64,000 nucleotides of DNA. It comes from Hysterangium stoloniferum (Eukaryota > Basidiomycota > Agaricomycetes > Hysterangiales > Hysterangiaceae). Both the position numbers and the translations under genes were made by a program. The notes under the pieces are model-generated. The model searched no databases. It was not told the DNA's origin and saw only the letters and a program-made list of their open reading frames with translations. The first letter of the stretch is position 1. The number at the start of each line of letters is the position of its first letter. Shown piece by piece: positions 2,034 through 33,228 of this stretch. The stretch covers positions 124,001 through 188,000 of the forward strand of contig WHVD01000080.1 of assembly GCA_015178975.1 (NCBI GenBank). The letters are read 5' to 3'.

Positions 2034-4457
2034 TGTTATGTATTTCTAAGTTTTATCCAATTTTTAAACAATTTCCCCTAACAAATTGCGAAAACAAATA
2101 TTCAAATGTAATTATATTGCGACGATTAAATTGTACAATATTTGTTTGATTTATCTTGAATTTATACAATTTATTTTGTATTTTTATCTAATAAATTGAG
2201 CAAATTATTGAATTTCTACTTTTTATTCTTTTTTGATTAATATGTCGGCGACTCAGCGCTTATTCACAACGCGCGAGTAATCATGTGACATTCACATGAT
2301 ATTTCAAACTCCGACGCCGACAAAACGCGATTTGAAATACTCGCGCATTATCAAGGCGAAATATATATATATTTTTATATTATTATAATAAAATATTATA
2401 TTTATAACTAACTAAAAGTAAATATAATAATTATATAATAATATAAAACCGGCCTGGCGTTTATTACACGGCGCGCGGGAAAATCGTCACAACGAGTGAC
2501 AACCGTCATAACAGGTGACAGTTGTCACAAGGGCGCGCGACGGTCACAGAGGCGCGCGACGGTCACAGAGGCGCGCGACGGTCACAGAGGCGCGCGACGG
2601 TCACAGAGGCGCGCGACGGTCACAGAGGCGCGCGCGACGGTCACAGAGGCGCGCGACGGTCACAGAGGCGCGCGACGGTCACAGAGGCGCGCGACGGTCA
2701 CAGAGGCGCGCGCGACGGTCACAGAGGCGCGCGACGGTCACAGAGGCGCGCGACGGTCACAGAGGCGCGCGACGGTCACAGAGGCGCGCGACGGTCACAG
2801 AGGCGCGCGACGGTCACAGAGGCGCGCGACGGTCACAGAGGCGCGCGACGGTCACAGAGGCGCGCGACGGTCACAGAGGCGCGCGACGGTCACAGAGGCG
2901 CGCGACGGTCACAGAGGCGCGCGACGGTCACAGAGGCGCGCGACGGTCACAGAGGCGCGCGACGGTCACAGAGGCGCGCGACGGTCACAGAGGCGCGCGA
3001 CGGTCACAGAGGCGCGCGACGGTCACAGAGGCGCGCGACGGTCACCGAGGCGCGCGACTGTCACAACGCGTGACAGTCACAAGACGCGAAGGGTGTCATG
3101 CGCGCGCACAGGCGCGAGAGCATATGTCATCATATATGCTACTGCAACAAAAACAGGAAACTCTCTGGAACATTCCAGTGGCTTCCAATGGAACATTAGT
3201 TAATAGGTACTAATATTAGATAGAATATTGTAGAATATTCTATAAAATTCTACAATGTTCCATTATGCCAAGAATATTCTATAGTGTCTTAGAAGTAGTT
3301 AGAACCTTCCACAATGCTCTAGAAAATTCTAGAAAATTCTAAATGACATCACTCCTCCCAGAATGACATCATTAAATCTTCTAGAATCTTCTAAATGTCT
3401 CAGACTAAAATGTATATAAGGAGCTCAGCTCCAGCCTTGAATAAAACCAATCAATCATATCATCACATCAACCCACCACATCTGTGTGTGTCACTGCAGC
3501 AAGCAGGCTACTCCACCCCTATCTGGGCAGTTGGACATCTCATTCCACCTCTATCTGAGCTGTTGGAAACCCTTGCCACCTCTATCAGAGTTGTTGGCCC
3601 AATCAGATCCCTTGTCACCTCAATCTGAGCTGTTGACTGATCTGCTGTTCCCCTGTCACCTCAATCTGAGTTGTTGACTTTTGTTCCCCCTTGCCACTTC
3701 TTAATTGAATAGTTGGCTATCTTTTATATATTATTTCCACTTCAGTTAGATCTGTTGGTTATCAACTAATAATATATAAATAATCTCATACTATAGTCAT
3801 CTCTTAATTGAGTACTGATTATTAGTTTTCCTTACATTTTATTTGTAGTTTAAGACTTCAGTCACCTCTAGTTGAGTAATTTGACTGTTTATTGCATTAC
3901 AAATAATCCTTGTTCTATTGTTCATTCATTGTGAATCAGTAAAGCATATTCACATAAACAAATACTGAGAATATCCTTGCAGAATCCTTAAGACTACATT
4001 AAGATCCTGATAAGTTAATATCACAGTAGACCTTGTAGGTTAGTATAAATAAAGCATATATTAGCCAAATAGTGTTTTATTCTATATCTAATCTTTTGAC
4101 CCGTTTATAAATATTTTTACTGTTTGACAAATAGTATAAAATATATATAAACTAGCTAGCATTGAAGTTAAATCTAGCTTCGGAATCAGTAAATTGTTAT
4201 TCTTATTTTAGTAGTTGTTATCACAGAAAAAGAACAAGCTTGCACAAGCAGCTCTCAAAACCTTCTTTGCGAAGTTGGGTGCATATATTCAAGTAAACTC
4301 TTGACTTCAGGGGTTCTAAGTCCATTTAGACTGCCACTGATTAATATCAAATACTTAAATTATTTTACCTTGTTGTGAATTGAGTATTTGCACATTTTGA
4401 TAGAGCATTGGACTCCTTTTTCGGAAAATAGTATTAAAATAAGGCTAATTCATTACA
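2034..4457. mobile_element. 2.4-kb LTR-like insertion (giant solo LTR or short non-autonomous LTR element)
   Basis: The segment begins TGTTATG and ends CATTACA. It is flanked by a 5-bp duplication GTATA (2029-2033 and 4458-4462) and interrupts the aORF; removing it rejoins the coding sequence. It contains a GC-rich 19-bp minisatellite (about 2530-3062), then AT-rich sequence with a TATA-like TGTATATAAGG near 3410 followed by a possible transcription start region. No gag or pol. The TG...CA ends and 5-bp TSD fit an LTR retrotransposon product. Whether it is a very long solo LTR or a non-autonomous element cannot be decided here. Confidence 0.7.
2530..3062. repeat. 19-bp minisatellite (about 27-28 units)
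   Basis: Tandem copies of GACGGTCACAGAGGCGCGC, near perfect, with a few units lengthened by a CG dinucleotide (near 2630 and 2706) and slight decay at the last unit. Because 19 is not a multiple of 3 and the unit has no stop, all three forward frames are open, giving spurious repetitive ORFs. It lies inside the insertion at 2034-4457. Confidence 0.95.
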
Positions 4458-13466: not shown

Positions 13467-13569
13467 TGTTAGGATCCCTGTCATTTCAGACCCCCACAAC
13501 CTGTTTTGGACCTAATACTCTTCATCATCTCACTGTTGGAACCCCTGCCCACATTATGACCACCCACAG

Positions 13570-14200
13570 TGTGAAGAGTGGTAGAAGTTCTAACCGTTCT
13601 ATATACGAAGAATATCGACCGTTGAAGTACGATACCACAATGTATTGACTGTCTAAGTCTAATATAGACCGAACGCGTATTGACTACTTAGTTCAATACG
13701 GTAGAGAGAAGTAGCTATCTAAAGTAAGGTAGATAGCTAGAACGAATAAGCAGAATCGACTGGTTAAGTGCAATTCTGGACAACTGCTCGAGTGCAAGTA
13801 GAGTAGTTAGAGAGTCAAATAATAGAGTAGCGTGGATGTAGTCCACGCGAGTTGAGATAAGGATTGAGTTTCGACTGATACAGTTCGAAACTCAGTTTGA
13901 ATGAGTAGCTAAAGCCTGTCTGTGACGGTCGAGATGATACACCAATCACAACTTACAGGACACTAACGGGTGTCTGGGTAAGTCGTGGTTGCGGTGTAAA
14001 AAGTGTCTGAGTTCTAAACTACGGGCGCTAGAATACATAGGTCTGGCGTGTGTGCACCCACAAGAGTCGATGTACCGCATACATAGGTCGTCAAACTAAT
14101 TATAGATATAATAAAAGAGAGAAAATAGAAATAATAAAGGAAATATAGTAAGAGCTCATCCGACTATATTTCCTGAGTGGATTTCGCCATACCTCTCACA
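13570..14200 (-). mobile_element. 3' LTR (type B) of the giant element
   Basis: 631 bp. In element sense it starts TGTGAGAGGTATGG and ends CTCTTCACA. Contains perfect short hairpins: GTATTGA/TCAATAC, TAGCTATCT/AGATAGCTA, GCGTGGA/TCCACGC, GAGTTTCGA/TCGAAACTC. Directly preceded (in sense) by the GGGGGGCAC polypurine tract. Confidence 0.93.
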
Positions 14201-14225: not shown

Positions 14226-17185
14226 TCAAAGAAGATGTCGAAGGATGCTTGGAACTCCTCCCCATGTGTCCTGCGATGAACCCCCAAGGTGTAGGATAGC
14301 GTTGCCCCAGGTGAGACGCTTGGCACGAAAGGAAAGAGCAATGTCCTCCCGCCTCGAAGCATCATTGGCGGATGTCAACCCATCTAGTTTTTGGATCGAC
14401 GAGACCCAACGACCGTAGGCCTTCTGGCGAGTTCGAATTATGGTGCGAACGCGATCAGCGGAAGCGTCAGTTATACGGGCAATGAGAGGGGGTCGAGGGT
14501 GTAGTGATGGCGGGGTAGGAGTGATGAGCGGTGTGGAGCTCATGTCTCCCCCAGAGGGGATTCCTCTCGAGGTGTCCGAATCTGGCAACAGTTGCTCCAA
14601 CAAGTCAATGAGGTCCACTGCAGAGTGGATTGGTGTGTGGTCAGGAAGAACACAAGAAGAGTTGACAAGTAAGGACCGAAACATGGAAAGTTCCACCCGT
14701 TTGATATCCTCCGCTAAACGCAGCTGTTCCTTAGGGTCGTTGACGCATAAATAAAATGCGCTCATGCGGTCCGACAACGTGAGAGACCCGCTATACCCCT
14801 GGATATGCCCTTTAAGAAGGGGGTGCCACAGGGTTGGTCCCAGTCACGTTAATGTGCATCCCACGGTGAAGATGTTGGAGGGGTAATTAATGGACATGCG
14901 CATCCGACTTGACTGGAAGGGACGGGAGGGGCCAGCCGTATCCTCAGAGTGGAGGGGAGAGGACGGCTGTGGCGGGGGGCCGCGAACGGGGTGGGCCAGG
15001 GGGGGGTCCATGACAAGGGGCTCATCAGCCTGAGTATCGGCTCTTCGTTTCCCTTTTGCCTTTTCGCTTAAGGGGGGAGGCTCCTCGAAGGCTTCCATTG
15101 CCGGGGGGGGTTCCTTGGAGACGTCTATGGCTGAGAGAGGCGCTTCGAGGACTTCCTCCATAGGCATTGCAAGAACTTCTGGGATAGGGTGATCAATATC
15201 CATTAATGTATCGTTAGGATGCTGAATGGGGCTTCCCAGAGAAACGCAAGGGGAGTAGGGAGAGGCGGGTAGTGGACTCCGCATTGTCAAGGAAGTGAGG
15301 GGAATGTTAGACACCGCAGGGACCAAAGGCATCGGAGTAGAGTGGGAGGCAACGAGAGGGTCAGGTGACGTACGGAGGGGTGAGATTGGCTGCGGTGCTG
15401 GAGGAGGCTTGGGTATGGATGAGGACGGTGATATAAGAGAATGTCCTGCGAAGGGGAGGGGTAGTGGTATAGGGGGAAGAGAAGGCAGCTCGGAGGATGG
15501 TACAAGACTTCCCGGTAGCTCCGAAAAGGGTGTAAAGCGCTGTAATGTAGGTACGGAAGAGACCGGCGGAGGTGGAGGAAGATGAGAGGAAGTGGATGGG
15601 GTTGCAGAGTCTGCTGGACGATACCCTCTCCAAACTCTGACGGAAGTTGGCAGCTTTCGTCGTTGGTTAGGATCACTCGTGAAGAAGTGAATGTTGTCAG
15701 GGAGTAGGAAACCTTCATGGCAGTCAGCACCAAGGTACTTGCTGTCGTAGGTGGGGTAGCGAGATTGGTCATCCTCCGAGTCAGATGAAAGATCACCGGG
15801 CCCCATCCGGTAGGTCCGTTCCTGAGGTCCACATTGTGAAAGGGGTCTGGGAGGTAATGCAACTCCATCTCCACGTCGCAATGCAATGCTTTGTAATTTG
15901 ATCCTTCGTACTTTGTCCCAATCTGTGAAGAGTGGTAGAAGTTCAGACCGTTCTATATACGAAGAAATGAGTAGAAGAGGAGGATATTGACCTATTCGGT
16001 GCAATATAAGAGAAAGTGAGAGAAAGAGCACGAGATGACGAAGGAGTCAACGAGTGCAATGGTTCGAGTGGAGGCCTCGACTATTACAGTTCGAGGCCAG
16101 AAGTGTTTAGTAGTTCAGATATTGCTACTTATGTAGTAGCTGACACGTTACCCTGATCACCGCTCGTAGTAGACCTAGTTTGTGTCTTTCGAGTGGTGGT
16201 TCTTGGGTTAAAGTGTGTCTGAGTTCCAATTGGTGCTGAGTGCACCCACAAGTATACACAATGCTTTGAACTAATGAAATATGCAATATTCGAAGAATAT
16301 GAAAGATAGAAAAATATGAATAGAATATGTAAAATATAAATAAAATAAAAGGAGTGTTTTACCACAATGAAACTGTGGTAAAAGCATACCCTTCACACAA
16401 TCGTAGAAGGTGACCCCATCTTTCCCTTTCCTACTTTTTTGTCCTACACTCCGAACACATGGCGTGCCCCCGTCGCTGCAATCCATTTCAGCGAAATCTG
16501 TCCATTTATGACCCGAAGGGGGAGCGATGATTGGAGGATTATCGTGCCCTTCCATTTTCCTCCATTCCTGCCGTGTCCGCCTTGAAGGGACATTATCCCT
16601 AGCCCCCATCCTCCGCTGTCCTTCCAAGTACTCCTCTCTCCTCTTCCGTTTAAGCATTTTCAATTCCTCCTGAACCTGCAGGGAGAAAGCCTCAGACTGC
16701 TGTTTCTTTTTGATCTCCTCTTCGGTAGAAGGGAAAATACTACGAGAAGGTGGTGGGGTTTCACTCCATGTTCCCGAGGGAGCCCCCCAAGTATCAGAGG
16801 ACCATGGTGCAGCTTTTGAAACGGAGTCCGTCCGCATAGGATTTGTGGACGATGAGGTCTCCTCCACGTGCTCAACAGTTTCTGTTTGAGGTGATGGGGC
16901 AGAAGGAACTGTAGTTTGAGGTCGAGGTATCCTTTTAAAATTGGGAAATCGGGGTCTGGGAAGAGGAGCGTATGGAGTAAAGGCGGTTCCGTTCCCCGAG
17001 TTGGTGGACGTTCCCACGATGTCGCCCTGCGCAGCGGAGGGTATTGGCAAAGGCGTTCCAGAATTACTCGTGAAGTGCTCAACTTGTTCAGTGCGAGATG
17101 GTGTGGTAGAGGTATTAGTAGGTTGAGGTCACGGTATTCTTTTGAAGTTGGGGAACTTGGGTTTGGGTTGTTGCTCCTGCGACAT
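14226..17185 (-). pseudogene. Ty3-A accessory 3' ORF (aORF), copy in the giant element
   Basis: ATG at 17,185. With the nested LTR (15,924-16,397) removed the frame codes for about 820 residues. Order of regions: N-terminal KFPNFKRIP, which occurs twice; Ser/Thr/Pro-rich stretch; KRKRREEYLEGQRR basic helix; HKWTDFAEMD; VRRIKLQSIALRRGD; SSDSEDDQSRYPTY; GADCHEGFLLPDNIHFFTSD; a long Pro-rich linker; EKAKGKRRAD; then a predicted helical C-terminal domain (EDIKRVELSMFRSLLV, AVDLIDLLEQLLP, IIRTRQKAYGRWVSSIQ) ending LRHLL. Stops at about 17,129-17,131 and 14,844 both replace Arg codons kept in sister copies. No known catalytic motif and no transmembrane segment; function unknown. It could be a second structural or nucleic-acid-binding protein of the element. 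Confidence 0.78.
15924..16397 (-). mobile_element. Solo LTR, type A, nested in aORF
   Basis: 474 bp, TGTGAAGAGTGG to CATACCCTTCACA (element sense on the minus strand), TSD CAATC at 15,919-15,923 and 16,398-16,402. It interrupts aORF between VTFYD and the next residue; the uninterrupted copy at 60,460 reads VTFYNWDKV. Contains hairpins such as GGCCTCGA/TCGAGGCC and GCTACT/AGTAGC. Confidence 0.95.
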
Positions 17186-21765: not shown

Positions 21766-21770
21766 GAATC

Positions 21771-22492
21771 TGTTAAGAACTAGAAACTGACTAATGTCGG
21801 TGGCCGACGGGGGCCGGTCGGAAGGACTTGGCTTCAGCTTATGTGCTGCGCCCTCGCAAATATCCGTAGGTTGTCCTTAAATTTCGGACAGGTGAAGACT
21901 AAATCCTAAGAAGGACCTTTCGGTGAGATACCGATCGGAACCGAAGGACAGGTCAGGTGTCGGGCCAAGGGATCGGGCCGAGAATGGGCGAGCGCACGCG
22001 AAGGCGGAAGGGGGGTTCTTCTAGTATGGGACTGCTACAGATGTATGAGGGTATTCTGAGTCGATATTCTGATTGCCTAGTAACTACAATTACAGCGAGT
22101 TCATATACAAGTAACAGGCATCTAGAAAATACTAATGGGGAGGAGGGCGGAAAACGGCATTAACATTAAGCTTGACTAGGAACAGGAAGTTTATGATTAG
22201 TTCGGAGGCCGATGATAACCAAGAATGGAAATTACGATAAAAGGAAATAGTTCGAGGACTACAAATATAGATAGACATACGTGGAACATAAGATGAGACG
22301 GATCAACATGATGAAAGGGACATATCAAAGCATAACCAGACAGAAAGGCGTAGTCGGGTTTGATTGACCGGAGAGCATACGTCAGCGTCGGGAAACCGAC
22401 GGCTTGCGAAGGGTTGTATTGTCGAAGACGTATAACGAGGGTATTCCATCGGGGACCGTCGGCCTGCGAAGGGTTGCGACACAGTCATAACA
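21771..22492 (-). mobile_element. 3' LTR of the nested chromovirus
   Basis: 722 bp, ends TGTTAAGAAC and CAGTCATAACA as written on the plus strand. Contains the motif GACTTGGCTTCAGCTTATGT (antisense of the LTR), which recurs in LTR types F and H. Colinear with 28,782-29,503 without indels. Confidence 0.95.
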
Positions 22493-22663
22493 GTATCCCC
22501 TTATTTGGCCGAAATCCCAAGGAGGCCGAAAATCTAGATCGTGTACGTAAATCAACGTCGGTTACGGGTTGTGTGTCAGAACGTCATGTGACCGGTAAGA
22601 TTTTCGCATATAAGAAATGGGAAGTTACAAGGCGCTTGACTCTTCATCCTTTCCTCCAAAACA

Positions 22664-23668
22664 ATGTCGTTGAATCCTGGGGCGAAGACCATCCCTGTGA
22701 GGCTGACGGTAACTCCTGCGTCGGGTCCGAGTGGTACGCCGAATGCACAAGAACGTCGTCGCCAACTCGAGGCGAGGAAAAAGGCACGCGAGGAGGAGGA
22801 ACGAAAGGAGATGGAGGAGCTGAAAGCGATTGAGGTGGCCGAGGCGGAGGAGAAGAGACGGGTGGAGGTGGAAGCTACGCGCAAGCGTCGGGAGGCTGAA
22901 CTTGCGAGGAAAAAACAGCAGGAGGCCGGTCGGGCCCGAGAGGAGGAGGCGAGAAAGAAACGAGAAGGGAAGGTAAGTTAGGAGAAGTATCACACTGCGA
23001 ATCTCTACTAATGTTCTCTTCTCAGCGAAAGGCAGTATCACCGTCGGTCTCCGATGAAGAGGACGAGGAAGACGAGGATGAGGCTGCAGGGCCTTCGAGC
23101 CCGAAGGTGTTTTATGCATATATATATTTTTTTTGTTACTGACTTTTAGTGATAGAGACAAAAAGGAGTCCCCAAGGCGGGGCCTGAAAACGATCCTAGG
23201 TGTAACCGCTGCACTGCTCGGAACCGAGCTTGCCATCCTCGGGCGAACGGTCGGGGCCGCACATGTCAAGAGTGTGCGGGTCAAAAACTTGGTTGTACCT
23301 ATCCGGGGGCCGACGTGGGTGCGATCTACGGGGAGCGCCAGACAGATGCGATGGAGGAACAAAACCGCCTTATGCGGTTGTACTTCTCGGAGACCACTCG
23401 GTGGTGAAACGAGTCTCTGCGACAGCAGGGGCTCCTTCAAGAGCAAATGCGACTGCTGGGGGTGGCTATTGGAGAACAGACAGCCATGTTACAGTGGGTC
23501 GGGGGGCAGCTCGAGCAGTACCTCGAGCTGCCTAGTTCGGACGAAGTTGAGCCGGTTAGGACTTTGGAGGAAACTGGAGGGAAGGGAATATCGGTTGCCG
23601 TTGGTAAAGCACGAGCTTCGGAGGCCGAGGAGGAAGGGGAAGTAGTAGAGGGTACTTTGGATAGTTAA
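22664..23668 (+). CDS. Antisense accessory gene of the nested element: coiled-coil plus Zn(II)2Cys6 zinc-cluster protein (one stop)
   Basis: Likely exons 22,664-22,972, 23,026-23,106 and 23,156-23,668. The introns of 53 and 49 bp have GTAAGT/CAG and GTGTTT/TAG borders and both are phase 0. The first exon gives an E/K/R-rich coiled coil, exon 2 an acidic SDEEDEEDEDEAA stretch. Exon 3 opens with the six cysteines of a GAL4-type binuclear zinc cluster (CX2CX6CX10CX2CX6C: CNRC, then Cys at +7, CQEC, Cys at +7), ending with an EVVEGTLDS tail. Proteins of this class normally bind DNA as dimers in the nucleus. A TATAAG at about 22,609-22,614 lies 50 bp upstream. An in-frame TGA at 23,405-23,407 (probably TGG originally) truncates the product after the zinc cluster unless it is missed splicing. 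The gene runs opposite to gag-pol, between the chromodomain and the 3' LTR. Confidence 0.78.
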
Positions 23669-23787
23669 CAAAAATAATAATTGATTTAATCCTCTTTTTT
23701 TTTTTGAAAGCGTGAAGAAAATTGAAAACATCAACTAGTGGGACTTGGTGTTTGAGGAATCGGAGGCCGTCGGTTACCGTGTGAAGA

Positions 23788-26700
23788 CTAAAGAGAGTCT
23801 AAAGGACCGGGTTTGTTCGGATACGTTTGATGGAAAACTAAAACAATTTCCGATGCATTGCCAAGTTCGGTGGCTAGAATCCAGGAAGTTTCTTCATCTG
23901 TACCTTCATAGCCAGTCCATTTGACCAAATAAAGTAACTTGCACGATCGCCTGCGATTGTCGATCTTGGAGTCTAGGATTTCCGATATTTCAAATTCGGG
24001 TTCCCCGTCGATGATCACGGGTGGGGGTGGTGGTTGTATGCGATCGGGTATACTGTTAGCAACACAAGGTTCTAACATGGATACATGAAATACCGGGTGT
24101 ACTGCACGCATGTTGTTGGGGAGCCGAAGCGTCCATGAAAGCGTGCCGGCTTGTGCTATAACTTCAAAAGGACCTAAATATTTTTCAGAGAGCTTCTTAG
24201 AAGGTCTAGTAGTTCGGAAAAACTCGGCTTTAATGAATACTCAGTCTCCGATCTTGAAATCAGGAGGTGGAAGTCGGTTTTTATCCGCAGACCGTTGGTA
24301 TCGTTCTTGAGCCATTGCGATAGTTTTACGAAGTTCTTGATGTAGCTCGTCAAGGTTTGTAACAAAGTCTTGAGCACGGGCGGATGCGAGATCGCGTTCC
24401 GGGTGGATTGCGATGTTGGGGTTGTAACCTTTATTTGCGAAGAAAGGCGAAATGCCAGTAGTGGCATTCGGTGCGTTGTTGTATGCGAATTCGGCCAGTG
24501 GTAGTAGTGATTTCCAATTGTCCTGTTGATAGTTGCAATAGACACGGATGTATTGCTCCAAAGTTTGATTCATGCGTTCGGTTTGTCCATCACCTTCCGG
24601 GTGATAGCCCGAAGTGAAATGTAGCTTCATGTCTAGTGCTTTTCCAAGTGACCTAAAGAAGTGAGAGACAAACTCGGATCCGCGATCGGATGTGACATGC
24701 GACGGAACGCCATGCTTGGAGAATACGTGGGTGATGAATAATTCAGCTAACTGTACAGATGTTATCGTGTCATATGTTGGGATGAAAATACTTTGCTTTG
24801 AGAGCCGATCCACAACAACTAGGATTGCTGTGTGACCTTCGGATGCCGGTAGGTGCTCAATAAAATCCATCGAAATCGAGTTCCAGGGTTTTTCCGGTAT
24901 CGGTAATTGTTTGAGTAGGCCATATGGTTTGTGTCGCTGTGATTTAGAGCGTAAACACGTAGTACAAGATTTACAATAGTGCTTAACAAAATCTCGGATG
25001 CCGGGCCATGTATATTCTCTTCTAATGAGTGAAAGGGTCTTATTGAGGCCGAAATGTCCCGAGATTGGGTGGTCGTGTTTATGTTGTAGGATTCGCAGCC
25101 GAAGGGTGTCGGAATCCGGTACATAAATGCGATTGTCAAGTCTAATGAAACCTTGTGAGTCTAATAACCATCGGGGTTGATCGGGGTCGGACGGGTTATC
25201 GAGGTGTGCTTTGGTGACTGGGTCTAATGGAATTGCCGATAGTATGTCTTGATGTAACTTTTCGGTATCCATAAGGATAACACTTCGCAAGACTGGATGA
25301 ATGAGGTAAGTGGCTCGGATAGATGCGGACAGTTGTTCCGATGAAAACATAGGTTTGAAATTATGCGGATTAACTGTGGCGTAGTCGCTACTCCCCTCTT
25401 TAGGATAGATGTCCCATCGTCTAGTCATAGCGTCGGGTTTTCCACCAAGGCGGCCGGGACGGAAACGAATTACCATGTTGAAAGTGGAGAGGTATTCGGA
25501 CCATCGAGCTTGTCGACGGGTGAGAAGTTTTGTGGTTGAAAAGTAAACTAAATTCTTGTGGTCTGTAATAACATCTACCGGATGGGCCGAGCCTTCCAAA
25601 TAATGTCGCCATGTCTTGAAAGCTTCAAATATTGTGAGTAATTCCTTATCGTGAACGTCATAGTTGAGTTCAGGCGCCGAAAATGTGCGAGACAGAAAAG
25701 CCACTGGGTGTACTTCACCATCGGTGTCCAGAATGGACAATATCGCGGCAAGCGCATAGTCCAAAGCATCAGTTTCCACGATGAGTTGAACGTCGGGTTT
25801 CCAGTGCGACAAAATAGGGGCAGACGTAAAGGCACTTTTCAATTCCTGAAATGCCGATCGGCATTCTTCGGAGAAATTCCACGGGGTGTCTTTGCGAGTA
25901 AGACGAGTGAGCAGAACGGTAATTTTTGAGTAATTGTGAATGAAACGACGATAAAAATTGGCAAAGCCTAAAAAGGACTGAATATCTTTAACCTTTCGGG
26001 GTTCCGGCCAATCTTGAATGACTTGAATTTTAGAGTCGTCCATGCGGAGACCGTCGGGTTCCATCATGAAGCCTAAGTATTCAACCGTGTCGACATCAAA
26101 AGAACATTTTTTACCATTCGCAAAAAGACCATGTTTTCGGAGTCTTCGGAGGACTTCACGGACGTGTTCATCATGAAGTGTAGGGTCTTCGGAGAAGATG
26201 AGGATGTCGTCTAGGTACACAATGACAAAGACGTCAAGGAGGTCGGAAAAGACGTCGTTGATAAAACATTGAAAGACCGACGGAGCGTTGGTGAGGCCGA
26301 AAGGCATCACTAACCATTCAAAGGAGCCATAGCGAGTGCGAAAAGCTGTTTTCCATTCGTCACCTTCGGCGATCTGAACCAAATGATAGGCGTGTTTGAG
26401 ATCTATCTTTGTATAAATTCGGGCCTTCCGAGGGGCGTCGAGTAAATCGGAGATTAGTGGTAATGGGTACTTGTCTTTTCGAGTAATCGCGTTTAGTCCT
26501 CGAAAGTCAACGCAAAGTCGAAGGGAACCGTCTTTTTTCCGAACGAATAGGACAGGGGCTCCATAGGGAGACTTTGAGGGTCGGATAAAACCTATAGCCA
26601 AATGTTCGTCCAAGAAATCTCGGATAGCTGATAATTTGGACTGCGAGAGAGGATAAACTGGGCCTAGGGGCGGATGTGAACCATCTTCAATATCAATTTT

Positions 26701-27443
26701 CAAATCGTAAGGCCTGTGAGGGGCAAGTCGATTGGCTTTTTGTTTACTGAAGACATCTGCAAATTCATGGTATTTTTTAGGAACACCTTCTAAATCTGGG
26801 ATTGGTTCGGTCACCGGGGATGCAAAGCGACCGGTGACTTCGTCAACTTTAAGATTGACTGTAAATGCTCGGGAGCCGTCCAACTTGATGGCTCTCATAA
26901 AAGCTGCGGCGTTTATTAGAGAGACGGGCGGCAGAGAGCTCGGATTTGCCACGGGGGCCGGAGGTGCTGTAGAGGCCATATTTGCCGAAACAGGCAGAAG
27001 TGGACCAGTCGTATCGGGTGCCGACGGGGTTTGGAAATGGATACTGCCCAATACCCAATCAATCAACGGATTATAGCGGGTGAGCCAGTTATGTCCTAGA
27101 ACCACGGAGCAACTCGAGTCCAACTGTGTTACAAAAAACGTAACTGTCTGAAAGGTTCCACACGGGAACCAAAGTCGGAGTTCGCAGGCTTGCGAGATTA
27201 CGGAGTTTGAGGTACCATCAAAAAGTCGGAGCGGAATCGGATCTATTGCATAGGTTTTCAACTGTTTTTTTCGGGAAAAACTTGTATCTATAAAACAATG
27301 GGTTGAACCTGCCGAGAGATTCCGAAGTAAGATTTATGAACAAAGAATTAGGATCATACAGGGCGGATGCGTTAAGATGACAATTTTCTGGTGTGCGAGG
27401 AGATTCAACGCAACTCTCCAACCGCACGGAATCCAGAGAGTTG
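23788..27443 (-). pseudogene. pol polyprotein of the nested chromovirus (one stop codon)
   Basis: Reads protease, RT, RNase H, integrase, chromodomain. The protease active-site region near 27,300 reads LSAGSTHCFID, where family members usually have DSGST or DSGAT. RT has KSPYGAPVLFVRKKDGSLR, MPFGLTNAPSVFQ and YLDDILIFSE. RNase H has ETDALDYALAAIL. Integrase has HFGLNKT and CTTC, catalytic SMDF, TSDRG and QTERMNQTLEQY. A TGA at 24,241-24,243 follows FKIGD; the same frame continues VFIKAEFF, so TGG->TGA is the likely cause. The chromodomain (LYLVKWTGYEGTDEETSW) ends at 23,788. The pol frame overlaps or closely follows gag in a different frame, suggesting frameshift expression. Otherwise uninterrupted over more than 1,100 codons. 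Confidence 0.9.
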
Positions 27444-27444
27444 C

Positions 27445-28743
27445 TTAATCTTTTTTCGACTCGGCAGCCGGCTTGGCCGGTTGTGAGGTCATGGCCGTAT
27501 TGGCCGATCGGGCTTTTGTGGCTTTTGGGCATGCGGCGACTCGGTGTCCGGGATCTGCACACAACAAACAAAGGTTGTTGTCCATTCGGCGTTGCTTTTC
27601 CTGTGGTAGGAGCTTGCCATCGGAGCCGAGTTTGCCAGTTAAGTCGGGTTTGTCTTTGTCTTGAGACTTATTCGACTGTTTGCCCTTGCCTTTTTTGTCG
27701 TTAGACCCTTTGTTTTCGGACTTCTTATCGGAAGTCGAGTTGCCAGTTATATTGGTGTTTTGGTTACCAGACTTGTTGGCATTCTTGTTGTCCGATGATT
27801 TTTTGTCCGACGGGTTTTCGCGACTGATTTCCGAACGTCGTTCCCAGTATCGAGCATCTGCGTTTTGGGCTTTCAGGCGCATGAGAGGGAGGGTTTTCGG
27901 CTTGCCGGTCTCTCCTTTGGAAACTTCGTCTTTGAGGCGAGACGGAAGGCCGGAGTAAAACTGGTATCGGAGGGCCGAATCGCCCCAGTCGCAACACGTG
28001 GCGAGGTTGTTGAACTGGACGATATAATCAGTGATGCGCTGAGTGTCTTTCATTTTGAGATTAGAAAGCGCGGTTTCTGCATCGCCGGTTTGGTCGTAGG
28101 GGCCGAAGTTGGTTTCGAGTTCCTCGACAAAGGCATCCCAATCGTGGAACCAATCGGGGTTTTCAGAGGTGAGGCCAGAAAATGCGGGTTCGAACCAGGC
28201 TGCTGCGGAATCCTTAAGGTAAGAGAGTGCGAAGTTTACCTTTCGGTCATCCGTTGCGAATGCAGCCGGGTGGTCCCGAAAGTTGAATCGACATTGCATA
28301 AGAAATGTCGGCAATTTCTTCGGGTTTGAGCCAGTGAATGGCTCGGGTTTGTTGACTCGGGTTTGCCCAGGTTCCTTTTCCTTGATATTGCTTTTAAGGA
28401 ATTCGTTAAGGGATCCCAGAGTACCTGAAAACAATTCCCATGTCTCTTCAGGGTCGAGGGCTGGTTTCTTTTTCGTGGACTTCTTGGAGCCACTAGCTTG
28501 AGGTTGGTCGCCATCCTCGGGTTCGTGTTCCGAAACTGGTTGATTGTTAATTTCCTCAGTTGCTTCGGGGTCGGTTGCTTCGGTTACTTCTTCAGCATCG
28601 CCGGTAATCTCCACAAAGCGAGATTCTTCGGAGGTTTCTGGTAGCGGGGTTCTCTGAGTAGCTCGGGCTGTATACAGGAAAGGAGACTTGAGAGTGAAAG
28701 ATTCTGCTTCGCCGCTAGGCTTGGCATTTTTCCTCGGAGGCAT
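27445..28743 (-). CDS. gag of the nested chromovirus
   Basis: 432 residues, intact. Starts MPPRKNAKPSGEAESF, followed by an acidic region, then the retrotransposon capsid-like domain (FLMQCRFNFRDHPAAF, ALSYLKDSAAAWFEPAF), and a C-terminal CCHC zinc knuckle (CLLCADPGHRVAAC) in a Lys/Ser/Asn-rich tail. It forms virus-like particles and binds genomic RNA in this family. ATG lies 39 bp inside the 5' LTR boundary, so the leader is very short. No PBS starting with TGG is obvious right after the LTR, so priming may be unusual. Confidence 0.9.
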   Translation of the reverse strand: MPPRKNAKPSGEAESFTLKSPFLYTARATQRTPLPETSEESRFVEITGDAEEVTEATDPEATEEINNQPVSEHEPEDGDQPQASGSKKSTKKKPALDPEETWELFSGTLGSLNEFLKSNIKEKEPGQTRVNKPEPFTGSNPKKLPTFLMQCRFNFRDHPAAFATDDRKVNFALSYLKDSAAAWFEPAFSGLTSENPDWFHDWDAFVEELETNFGPYDQTGDAETALSNLKMKDTQRITDYIVQFNNLATCCDWGDSALRYQFYSGLPSRLKDEVSKGETGKPKTLPLMRLKAQNADARYWERRSEISRENPSDKKSSDNKNANKSGNQNTNITGNSTSDKKSENKGSNDKKGKGKQSNKSQDKDKPDLTGKLGSDGKLLPQEKQRRMDNNLCLLCADPGHRVAACPKATKARSANTAMTSQPAKPAAESKKD

Positions 28744-28781
28744 GATTAGACGGAAAATGCAAGTGTAAAATCAGAATATAC

Positions 28782-29503
28782 TGTTAAGAACTAGAAACTG
28801 ACTAATGTCGGTGGCCGACGGGGGCCGATCGGAAGGACTTGGCTTCAGCTTATGTGCTGCGCCCTCACAAATATCTGTAGGTTGTCCTTAAATTTCAGAC
28901 AGGCGAAGACTAAATCCTAAGAAGGACCTTTCGGTGAGATACCGATCGGAACCGAAGGACAGGTCAGGTGTCGGGCCAAGGGATCGGGCCGAGAATGGGC
29001 GAGCGCACGTGAAGGTGGAAGGGGGGTTCTTCTAGTATGGGACTGCTACAGACGTATGAGGGTATTCTGAGTCAATATTCTGATTGCCTAGTAACTACAA
29101 TTACAGCGAGTTCATATACAAGTAACAGGTGTCTAGAAAATACTAATGGGGAGGAGGGCGGAAAACGGCATTAACATTAAGCTTGACTAGGAACAGGAAG
29201 TTTATGATTAGTTTGGAGGCCGATGATAACCGAAAATGGAAATTACGATAAAAGGAAATAGTTTGAGGACTACAAATATAGATAGACATATGTGGAACAT
29301 AAGATGAGACGGATCAACATGATGAAAGGGACATATCAAAGCATAACCAGACAGAAAGGCGTAGTCGGGTTTGATTGACCGGAGAGCATACATCAGCGTC
29401 GGGAAACCGATGGCTTGCGAAGGGTTGTATTGTCGAAGACGTATAACGAGGGTATTCCATTGGGGACCGTCGGCCTGCGAAGGGTTGCGACACAGTCGTA
29501 ACA
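28782..29503 (-). mobile_element. 5' LTR of the nested chromovirus
   Basis: 722 bp and colinear with 21,771-22,492. About 20 substitutions by eye, all transitions, almost all CG versus TG/CA. Confidence 0.95.
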
Positions 29504-29508
29504 GAATC

Positions 29509-32521: not shown

Positions 32522-32597
32522 TTACATGTTTAGAATTTGATAGTTAAAATAAATGTTTTTCTTCGTAGGGAAAGAGCGGTCCAGCCCGGATCACCAC
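32522..32597 (-). promoter_or_regulatory. Ty3-A leader with putative primer-binding site
   Basis: Immediately after the 5' LTR the element reads GTGGTGATCCGGGCTGG. A TGG-starting stretch here is typical of a site complementary to a tRNA 3' CCA end; the tRNA is not identified. The same sequence, decayed, sits next to another LTR at 40,213-40,284. Confidence 0.5.
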
Positions 32598-33228
32598 TGT
32601 GAAGAGTGGTAGAAGTTCTAACCGTTCTATATACGAAGAATATCGACCGTTGAAGTACGATACCACGATGTATTGACTGTCTAAGTCTAATACGGACTGA
32701 ACACGTATTGACTACTTAGTTCAATACGGTAGAGAGAAGTAGCTATCTAAAGTAAGGTAGATAGCTAGAACGAATAAGCAGAATCGACTGGTTAAGTGCA
32801 ATTCTGGACAACTGCTTGAGTGCAAGTAGAGTAGTTAGAGAGTCAAATAATAGAGTAGCGTGGATGTAGTCCACGCGAGTTGAGATAAGGATTGAGTTTC
32901 GACTGATACAGTTCGAAACTCAGTTTGAATGAGTAGCTAAAGCCTGTCTGTGACGGTCGAGACGATACACCAATCACAACTTACAGGACACTAACGGGTG
33001 TCTGGGTAAGTCGTGGTTGCGGTGTAAAAAGTGTCTGAGTTCTAAACTACGGGCGCTAGAATACATAGGTCTGGCGTGTGTGTGCCCACAAGAGTCGATG
33101 TACCACATACATAGGTCGTCGAACTAATTATAGATATAATAAAAGAGAGAAAATAGAAATAATAAAGGAAATATAGTAAGAGCTCATCCGACTATATTTC
33201 CTGAGTGGATTTCGCCATACCTCTCACA
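32598..33228 (-). mobile_element. 5' LTR (type B) of the giant element
   Basis: 631 bp and colinear with 13,570-14,200, with 11 differences by eye, every one a transition at a CpG. Right flank CACAG is the matching TSD. Confidence 0.93.

Follow-up and report, generated by a model that had tools for sequence, protein, structure and literature searches.

Genes carried antisense to gag-pol are known from plant Ty3-gypsy retrotransposons of the Retand/Grande type, in which additional ORFs (TRP28 and others) lie between pol and the 3' LTR in most copies, and for these DNA binding has been predicted and a regulatory role proposed (Vicient 2025, PMC11963269). The main text of that paper does not contain the word 'intron', and the portion covered here does not mention module exchange. 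A comparable layout exists in HTLV-1 and its relatives, where HBZ is antisense, has a spliced form, is expressed from the 3' LTR and encodes a nuclear protein of transcription-factor type that reduces 5' LTR transcription (Romerio 2023, PMC10186651). Basidiomycete chromoviruses have been described as gag-pol elements with a chromodomain (Novikova 2010, PMC2864245), and in the main text of that study, its figure apart, the words 'antisense' and 'zinc' are absent, though such a gene may have been sighted before. In bdelloid rotifers, extra ORFs of LTR elements are shared or exchanged between retroelement types, but these are of other kinds (DEDDy, GDSL and others) and 'antisense' appears once, for small RNAs (PMC5408684, in the part considered). 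Word searches of the main texts of 'LTR Retrotransposons in Fungi' (PMC3248453) and of a Laccaria survey (PMC3411680) returned neither 'antisense' nor 'zinc', and among the papers listed by a literature search, no title or abstract opening described a fungal LTR element with a zinc-cluster gene in antisense.

We analysed a 64-kb window of Hysterangium stoloniferum contig WHVD01000080.1 (genome 111 Mb, 554 contigs), the window being the whole stretch of DNA examined, within which a chromovirus carries an antisense gene. Domain matches in this genome to the class II peroxidase extension (7), hydrophobin (18) and DUF6533 (at least 150) are those of an Agaricomycete. As in Retand/Grande, this gene lies between pol and the 3' LTR in most copies, both at the places sampled and among the 150 matches listed, whereas the plant elements belong to a non-chromovirus lineage and have TRP28 (PF04195). 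The fungal protein of the window matches no Pfam family at E up to 1 (searched as exon 1, exon 3 before and exon 3 after the TGA described below), and thus shows neither TRP28 nor a bZIP in these segments. Its likeness to HBZ, a bZIP protein from a retrovirus of people, concerns position and layout, with no homology claimed and the expression of the fungal gene predicted; the fungal protein itself appears to be Zn2Cys6-like. The features of the locus are as follows.

21,766-21,770, no strand: target-site duplication GAATC, left copy
21,771-22,492, minus: 3' LTR, 722 bp
22,343-22,492, minus: distal U3, where a difference between classes A and B goes with the antisense gene
22,493-22,663, plus: upstream region of the antisense gene, with a polypurine tract (other strand, by eye), class-shared islands and ATATAA
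22,511-22,539, plus: island common to classes A and B
22,584-22,592, plus: island common to classes A and B, TCATGTGAC
22,609-22,614, plus: ATATAA
22,664-22,972, plus: exon 1, 103 codons, with a conserved N-terminus and a long charged stretch (coiled-coil-like, by eye)
22,973-23,025, plus: intron 1, 53 nt, GTAAGT...CAG, branch-like CTAAT, phase 0
23,026-23,106, plus: exon 2, 27 codons, acidic
23,107-23,155, plus: intron 2, 49 nt, GT...AG, branch-like CTGAC, variable TA/T run, phase 0
23,156-23,668, plus: exon 3, with a basic stretch, a six-cysteine Zn2Cys6-like cluster, a helical stretch, an acidic tail and the stop TAA
23,788-24,240, minus: end of pol, Tf2-1-like SH3 and chromodomain, in frame with the preceding ORF
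24,241-27,333, minus: pol, with RT, RNase H, integrase and a weak protease match at its start (stop-to-stop frame)
27,445-28,743, minus: gag
28,782-29,503, minus: 5' LTR
29,504-29,508, no strand: target-site duplication GAATC, right copy

The element at 21,771-29,503 has the termini TGTTA...TAACA with GAATC duplicated on both sides, and a Pfam search of its minus strand gave gag, RT, RNase H, integrase and chromodomain in order between the LTRs, which identifies it as a Ty3/gypsy chromovirus and bears out the earlier note on this DNA, made from the sequence alone, in which a complete element had been called here. Its two LTRs are 20 transitions apart, 16 of these at CpG, with 0 transversions, and such all-transition, mostly CpG differences are the expected outcome of methylated-CpG decay. 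In the window copy an in-frame stop at 24,241-24,243 cuts the SH3/chromodomain end off pol; among the 150 relatives listed, 10 have 1302-residue open frames at the chromodomain, five of them class A and five class B (defined below). The chromovirus is itself a nested insertion: around it lies an older Ty3-like element, decayed and in minus orientation, whose LTR-like direct repeats (13,567-14,017 and 32,595-33,045) are 98-100% identical in the reported pieces. Two open minus-strand frames of the outer element between integrase and LTR, 14,844-16,046 (400 residues) and 16,271-17,128 (285), match no Pfam family at E 0.001 and are possibly extra genes of that element. Elsewhere in the window, a tandem array of ~19-nt units (2,431-3,141) overlaps a 253-residue open frame.

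The antisense gene comprises three exons and 300 codons on the plus strand, and in the window it is broken by one early TGA (23,405-23,407). We compared it at 40 genome places including the window's own (L001-L030 and L041-L050; L031-L040 duplicate these), a non-random sample of the best 30 exon-3 matches, one being the window, and 10 from a more divergent part of the list. Four further places (L068-L071) were picked from matches to a diagnostic pattern of the gene, giving 44 sampled places in total. Counts of splice sites and starts leave out three copies in which exon 1 is absent or interrupted, and two without exon 2. The start ATG was present in 36/37 copies, as was ATATAA 5' of it; intron 1 retained its GT donor in 36/37 and its AG acceptor in 37/37, and intron 2 retained both donor and acceptor in 38/38. 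Exon length was a multiple of three in 27/37 copies for exon 1 and in 36/38 for exon 2, while intron 2 occurred in nine lengths covering all three phases (15, 13 and 10 copies). No intron-less copy was found among the 37 and 38 copies examined for introns 1 and 2, respectively, which fits the earlier argument that the introns cannot be explained by passage through the sense RNA. What had been read from the single copy held up: a gene opposite gag-pol between the chromodomain and the 3' LTR (22,664-23,668), a TATA-like box, two phase-0 introns, a charged stretch of coiled-coil appearance and a TGA that truncates the product 3' of the zinc cluster, whose last cysteine ends at 23,296.

The gene accompanies the element throughout the genome. 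Its diagnostic pattern had 242 exact matches genome-wide and its reversed control 0. An exon-3 match lay within 3 kb of 116 of the 150 chromodomains listed, always in antisense order (0 in the other order), and inspection by eye of the remaining 34 showed an exon-1 match in antisense order at 17 and a pattern match at three more (C2, C23 and C152), leaving 14 with none among the matches listed. At all 40 compared places the pol-end side adjoins the antisense gene in the window's order, and LTR DNA falls within the fetched stretch at 36 of them. Across the 44 sampled places, window included, chromodomain DNA lies beside the gene in 43 and in the expected antisense order in 42, with L069 and L070 showing the usual order; in L068 chromodomain and gene are on the same strand, which is a local rearrangement in an old copy, and L071 has LTR pieces but no chromodomain within the fetched stretch. 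Within this genome, searching for homologues between pol and LTR of other elements, a check proposed in the earlier note, was positive, and the outcome that it had named as counting against its reading, homologues existing only as ordinary host genes, was not seen at the sampled places. The antisense gene is a real, regular component of this chromovirus family.

A tree of the gene, built without L018, L019 and L048, fell into 27 rows of class A and 10 of class B, and support for this split was 100/100. We left four incomplete or interrupted copies (L018, L019, L042 and L048) out of the codon analysis, and in the coding check of 36 copies a further 10 were frameshifted in exon 1 or 2, leaving 26. 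Eight of these (L001, L004, L005, L011, L012, L021, L030 and L050) were intact, defined as having the ATG, no stop, no frameshift and an end at most 7 nt from the homologous stop, and both classes are represented among them. Four intact class A-class B pairs gave dN of 0.22-0.25 and dS of 1.7-2.2, the latter near saturation, with dN/dS of 0.11-0.13; for the 41-codon cluster segment of the same pairs dN/dS was 0.00-0.07, with dS saturated. A one-ratio codon model, from which six of the 26 copies were also left out, estimated a ratio of 0.28 with 20 copies in the set and of 0.37 with the 18 class A copies alone, values that include decay after insertion. Copies with a frameshifted exon 3 had high ratios (0.51 for L025-L004), and the near-identical pair L030-L050 gave 1.22 on very few changes. 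The low ratio between classes, a comparison that had been suggested from the outset, indicates purifying selection on the protein, and since the gene lies outside the pol frames, which end at 23,788, this selection is not borrowed from gag-pol. The protein of the antisense gene is under long-term purifying selection.

These results bear on two readings in which the protein would matter little. That the frame is a chance opening in decaying repeats, and no gene at all, might be argued from the stops or frameshifts in many copies, but it is contradicted by the retention of splice sites, frame and cysteines and by low dN/dS between two versions, and we regard it as barely conceivable. It is also very improbable that the active product is the antisense RNA, acting in copy-number or silencing control with the ORF secondary: the antisense position and the ATATAA kept upstream would suit such an RNA, whereas the between-class ratio and the kept splice sites point to a selected protein, in a stretch free of overlap with pol.

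By eye, the protein runs from a conserved N-terminus through charged, acidic and basic stretches to the six-cysteine cluster, a helical stretch and an acidic tail. The cluster, 23,201-23,296 from first to last Cys, has the motif C-X2-C-X6-C-X10-C-X2-C-X6-C, and all six cysteines are invariant in 22/22 aligned copies including the window, as are 15 other residues. Zn(II)2Cys6 domains (PF00172) follow the rule C-X2-C-X6-C-X5-12-C-X2-C-X6-8-C, which the spacing of 2-6-10-2-6 satisfies. PF00172 matched 13 of the 22 copies at E up to 10 (best E 0.014), below the Pfam gathering cut-off. An hhalign comparison with Zn_clus segments of the same genome, limited to the 11 of 16 that had five or more Cys and lacked a stop, gave a probability of 79%, and its score was equalled in 0/100 full column shuffles and 2/100 cysteine-keeping shuffles. 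A PDB sequence search returned three weak matches, the best an unrelated carboxylase (E 0.19) and the second the Zn2Cys6 factor LEU3 (E 0.49) with cysteines in register, while a single-sequence structure model was poor (pLDDT 57). We call the protein Zn2Cys6-like because the motif fits but the profile matches are weak. The earlier note's claim of a full GAL4-type cluster thus stands for the motif and its six cysteines, and not for a Pfam assignment of the window copy. With GAL4/LEU3 the protein shares, beyond the cysteine spacing, a helical stretch after the cluster and an acidic tail; unlike them it falls below the Pfam cut-off, has a long charged stretch before the cluster and is borne by a retrotransposon. 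Between Cys 2 and Cys 3, class A has ARNRA and class B KRGRT and variants, a difference that would fit different specificities.

A search of genome contigs, in a set without other fungal genomes, gave no relative of the gene, and we rejected as chance an IMG/VR match (L051, 35%) that shares the word NGRGRTCQ and lacks the six-cysteine spacing in the matching frame. Within the H. stoloniferum genome, Pfam Zn_clus has 42 matches, none of which, by eye, shares a place with the 150 antisense-gene copies listed, and no closer host relative outside elements was found among the best 150 candidates of each search. Zn_clus matches lie close together at G000:C56 and G000:C115, perhaps as tandem cysteine-rich host genes. 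An ordinary host transcription-factor gene might have been captured by the element, to be carried as a passenger or kept for the host. A host origin would suit both the introns and the fungal type of the cluster, and the 42 matches show that ordinary genes of this type exist in the genome; however, none of the 44 sampled places holds a copy clearly free of element DNA (L071 having LTR pieces only), and for a passenger in a family with 242 pattern matches dN/dS of 0.11-0.13 at dS above 1.7 is unexpected. We consider a passenger, or a gene kept for the host, improbable, while as the origin of the element's gene capture from the host may or may not have occurred.

The two classes of the gene do not follow the rest of the element. 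Between the window and L050 (C203), a class B copy, identity is 97% in the 800-bp integrase end and 97.3% in another 2.5 kb of pol, compared with 96.9% between two class A copies, but it falls to 68% in the antisense gene, 63% in distal U3 and 86% in the chromodomain part. L050 and three class A copies differ at a dS of 0.03-0.04 for integrase, 0.48-0.52 for the chromodomain section and 1.7-1.8 for the antisense gene. With L021, its fourth class A partner, integrase dS is 0.45 in an unusual section; L021 against three others gives 0.41-0.46 with dN/dS of 0.42-0.48, unlike other A-B pairs and from a gappy alignment. When another class B copy, at C509, was compared with the window in seven pol blocks of 400 columns, the first two gave 46-48% identity and the other five 87-93%.

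Trees agree with these comparisons. The gene sorts by class, as does distal U3 with the upstream region (U3d tree, without L018, L019, L041 and L048; class split 92/99, not starred), and integrase does not. In the integrase tree (without L021, L022, L041 and L048) a class B clade was rejected (AU p 0.0008) and L030 and L050 were nested in a class A group (98/95). The classes are nonetheless not fully mixed there, as the class label needs just 4 changes, a number as low in at most 1/500 shuffles. A class B clade was not rejected in the LTRa tree (AU p 0.205; without L018, L019, L023, L041, L047 and L048). Sliding identity placed the block edges at ~22,270-22,340 and ~24,000-24,120. With integrase near-identical and gene, U3 and chromodomain divergent, the cassette has changed hands as a block in these copies: in the copies sampled, chromodomain, antisense gene and distal U3 moved together between near-identical backbones. 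A template switch in integrase combined with intermolecular strong-stop transfer during reverse transcription could produce such edges. The linkage of the gene with U3 and chromodomain is not absolute, since the decayed recombinant L022 combines a class A gene with class B-type U3 and chromodomain, and adjacency alone can account for the linkage of gene and U3.

Taking these observations together, we think it somewhat likely that the antisense gene encodes a Zn2Cys6-like regulator of the element's own transcription, a role suggested by sequence features. A TATA promoter of its own, next to the 3' LTR, would drive transcription of the gene opposite gag-pol, and the transcript would be spliced twice to yield a protein of ~300 residues. 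This protein would most likely enter the nucleus, bind DNA in the U3/antisense-promoter region of the element and tune its transcription up or down. In the 5' LTR, distal U3 is placed upstream of where sense transcription begins, and in the 3' LTR it adjoins the antisense promoter, so one regulator could serve both.

It is possible, though unlikely, that the protein instead acts away from the element's promoter, on host genes, to the element's benefit or against silencing, or in particle, nuclear-import or integration steps with the chromodomain. The chromodomain does belong to the same exchanged block as the gene, CGG/CCG triplets show no enrichment in distal U3 and the upstream region (z 0.0), and the canonical base-contacting residue, which we take to be Lys18 of GAL4, has no counterpart in the cluster. 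For TCGG/CCGA the LTR does show enrichment (z 4.6), but so does gag-pol (z 8.4), and a pair of 30-nt repeats 60 bp apart in U3 is not kept in the relatives compared. Against action elsewhere, the six conserved cysteines, basic stretch and acidic tail suit a DNA-binding regulator better than a particle protein, and in the U3d tree distal U3 and the region upstream of the gene follow the gene's classes. Returning to a regulator of the element's own transcription, we offer a rather doubtful extension: chromodomain, antisense regulator and distal U3 would make up a portable module of control that exists in at least two types, with each regulator acting on U3 of its own type. Retrotransposons that otherwise hardly differ would then fall into something like immunity or compatibility groups, and template switching in reverse transcription would reassort the types.

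For HTLV-type retroviruses antisense regulatory genes are well established, and for plant retrotransposons they are suspected; the chromovirus of H. stoloniferum would add a fungal case, apparently independent of these, in which introns are conserved and purifying selection is clear. The exchange of modules between classes A and B is a natural experiment in which near-identical pol is joined to different control cassettes, making the function of such genes testable. The fungal case would point to an antisense nuclear regulator next to the 3' LTR as a solution that LTR elements have reached repeatedly.
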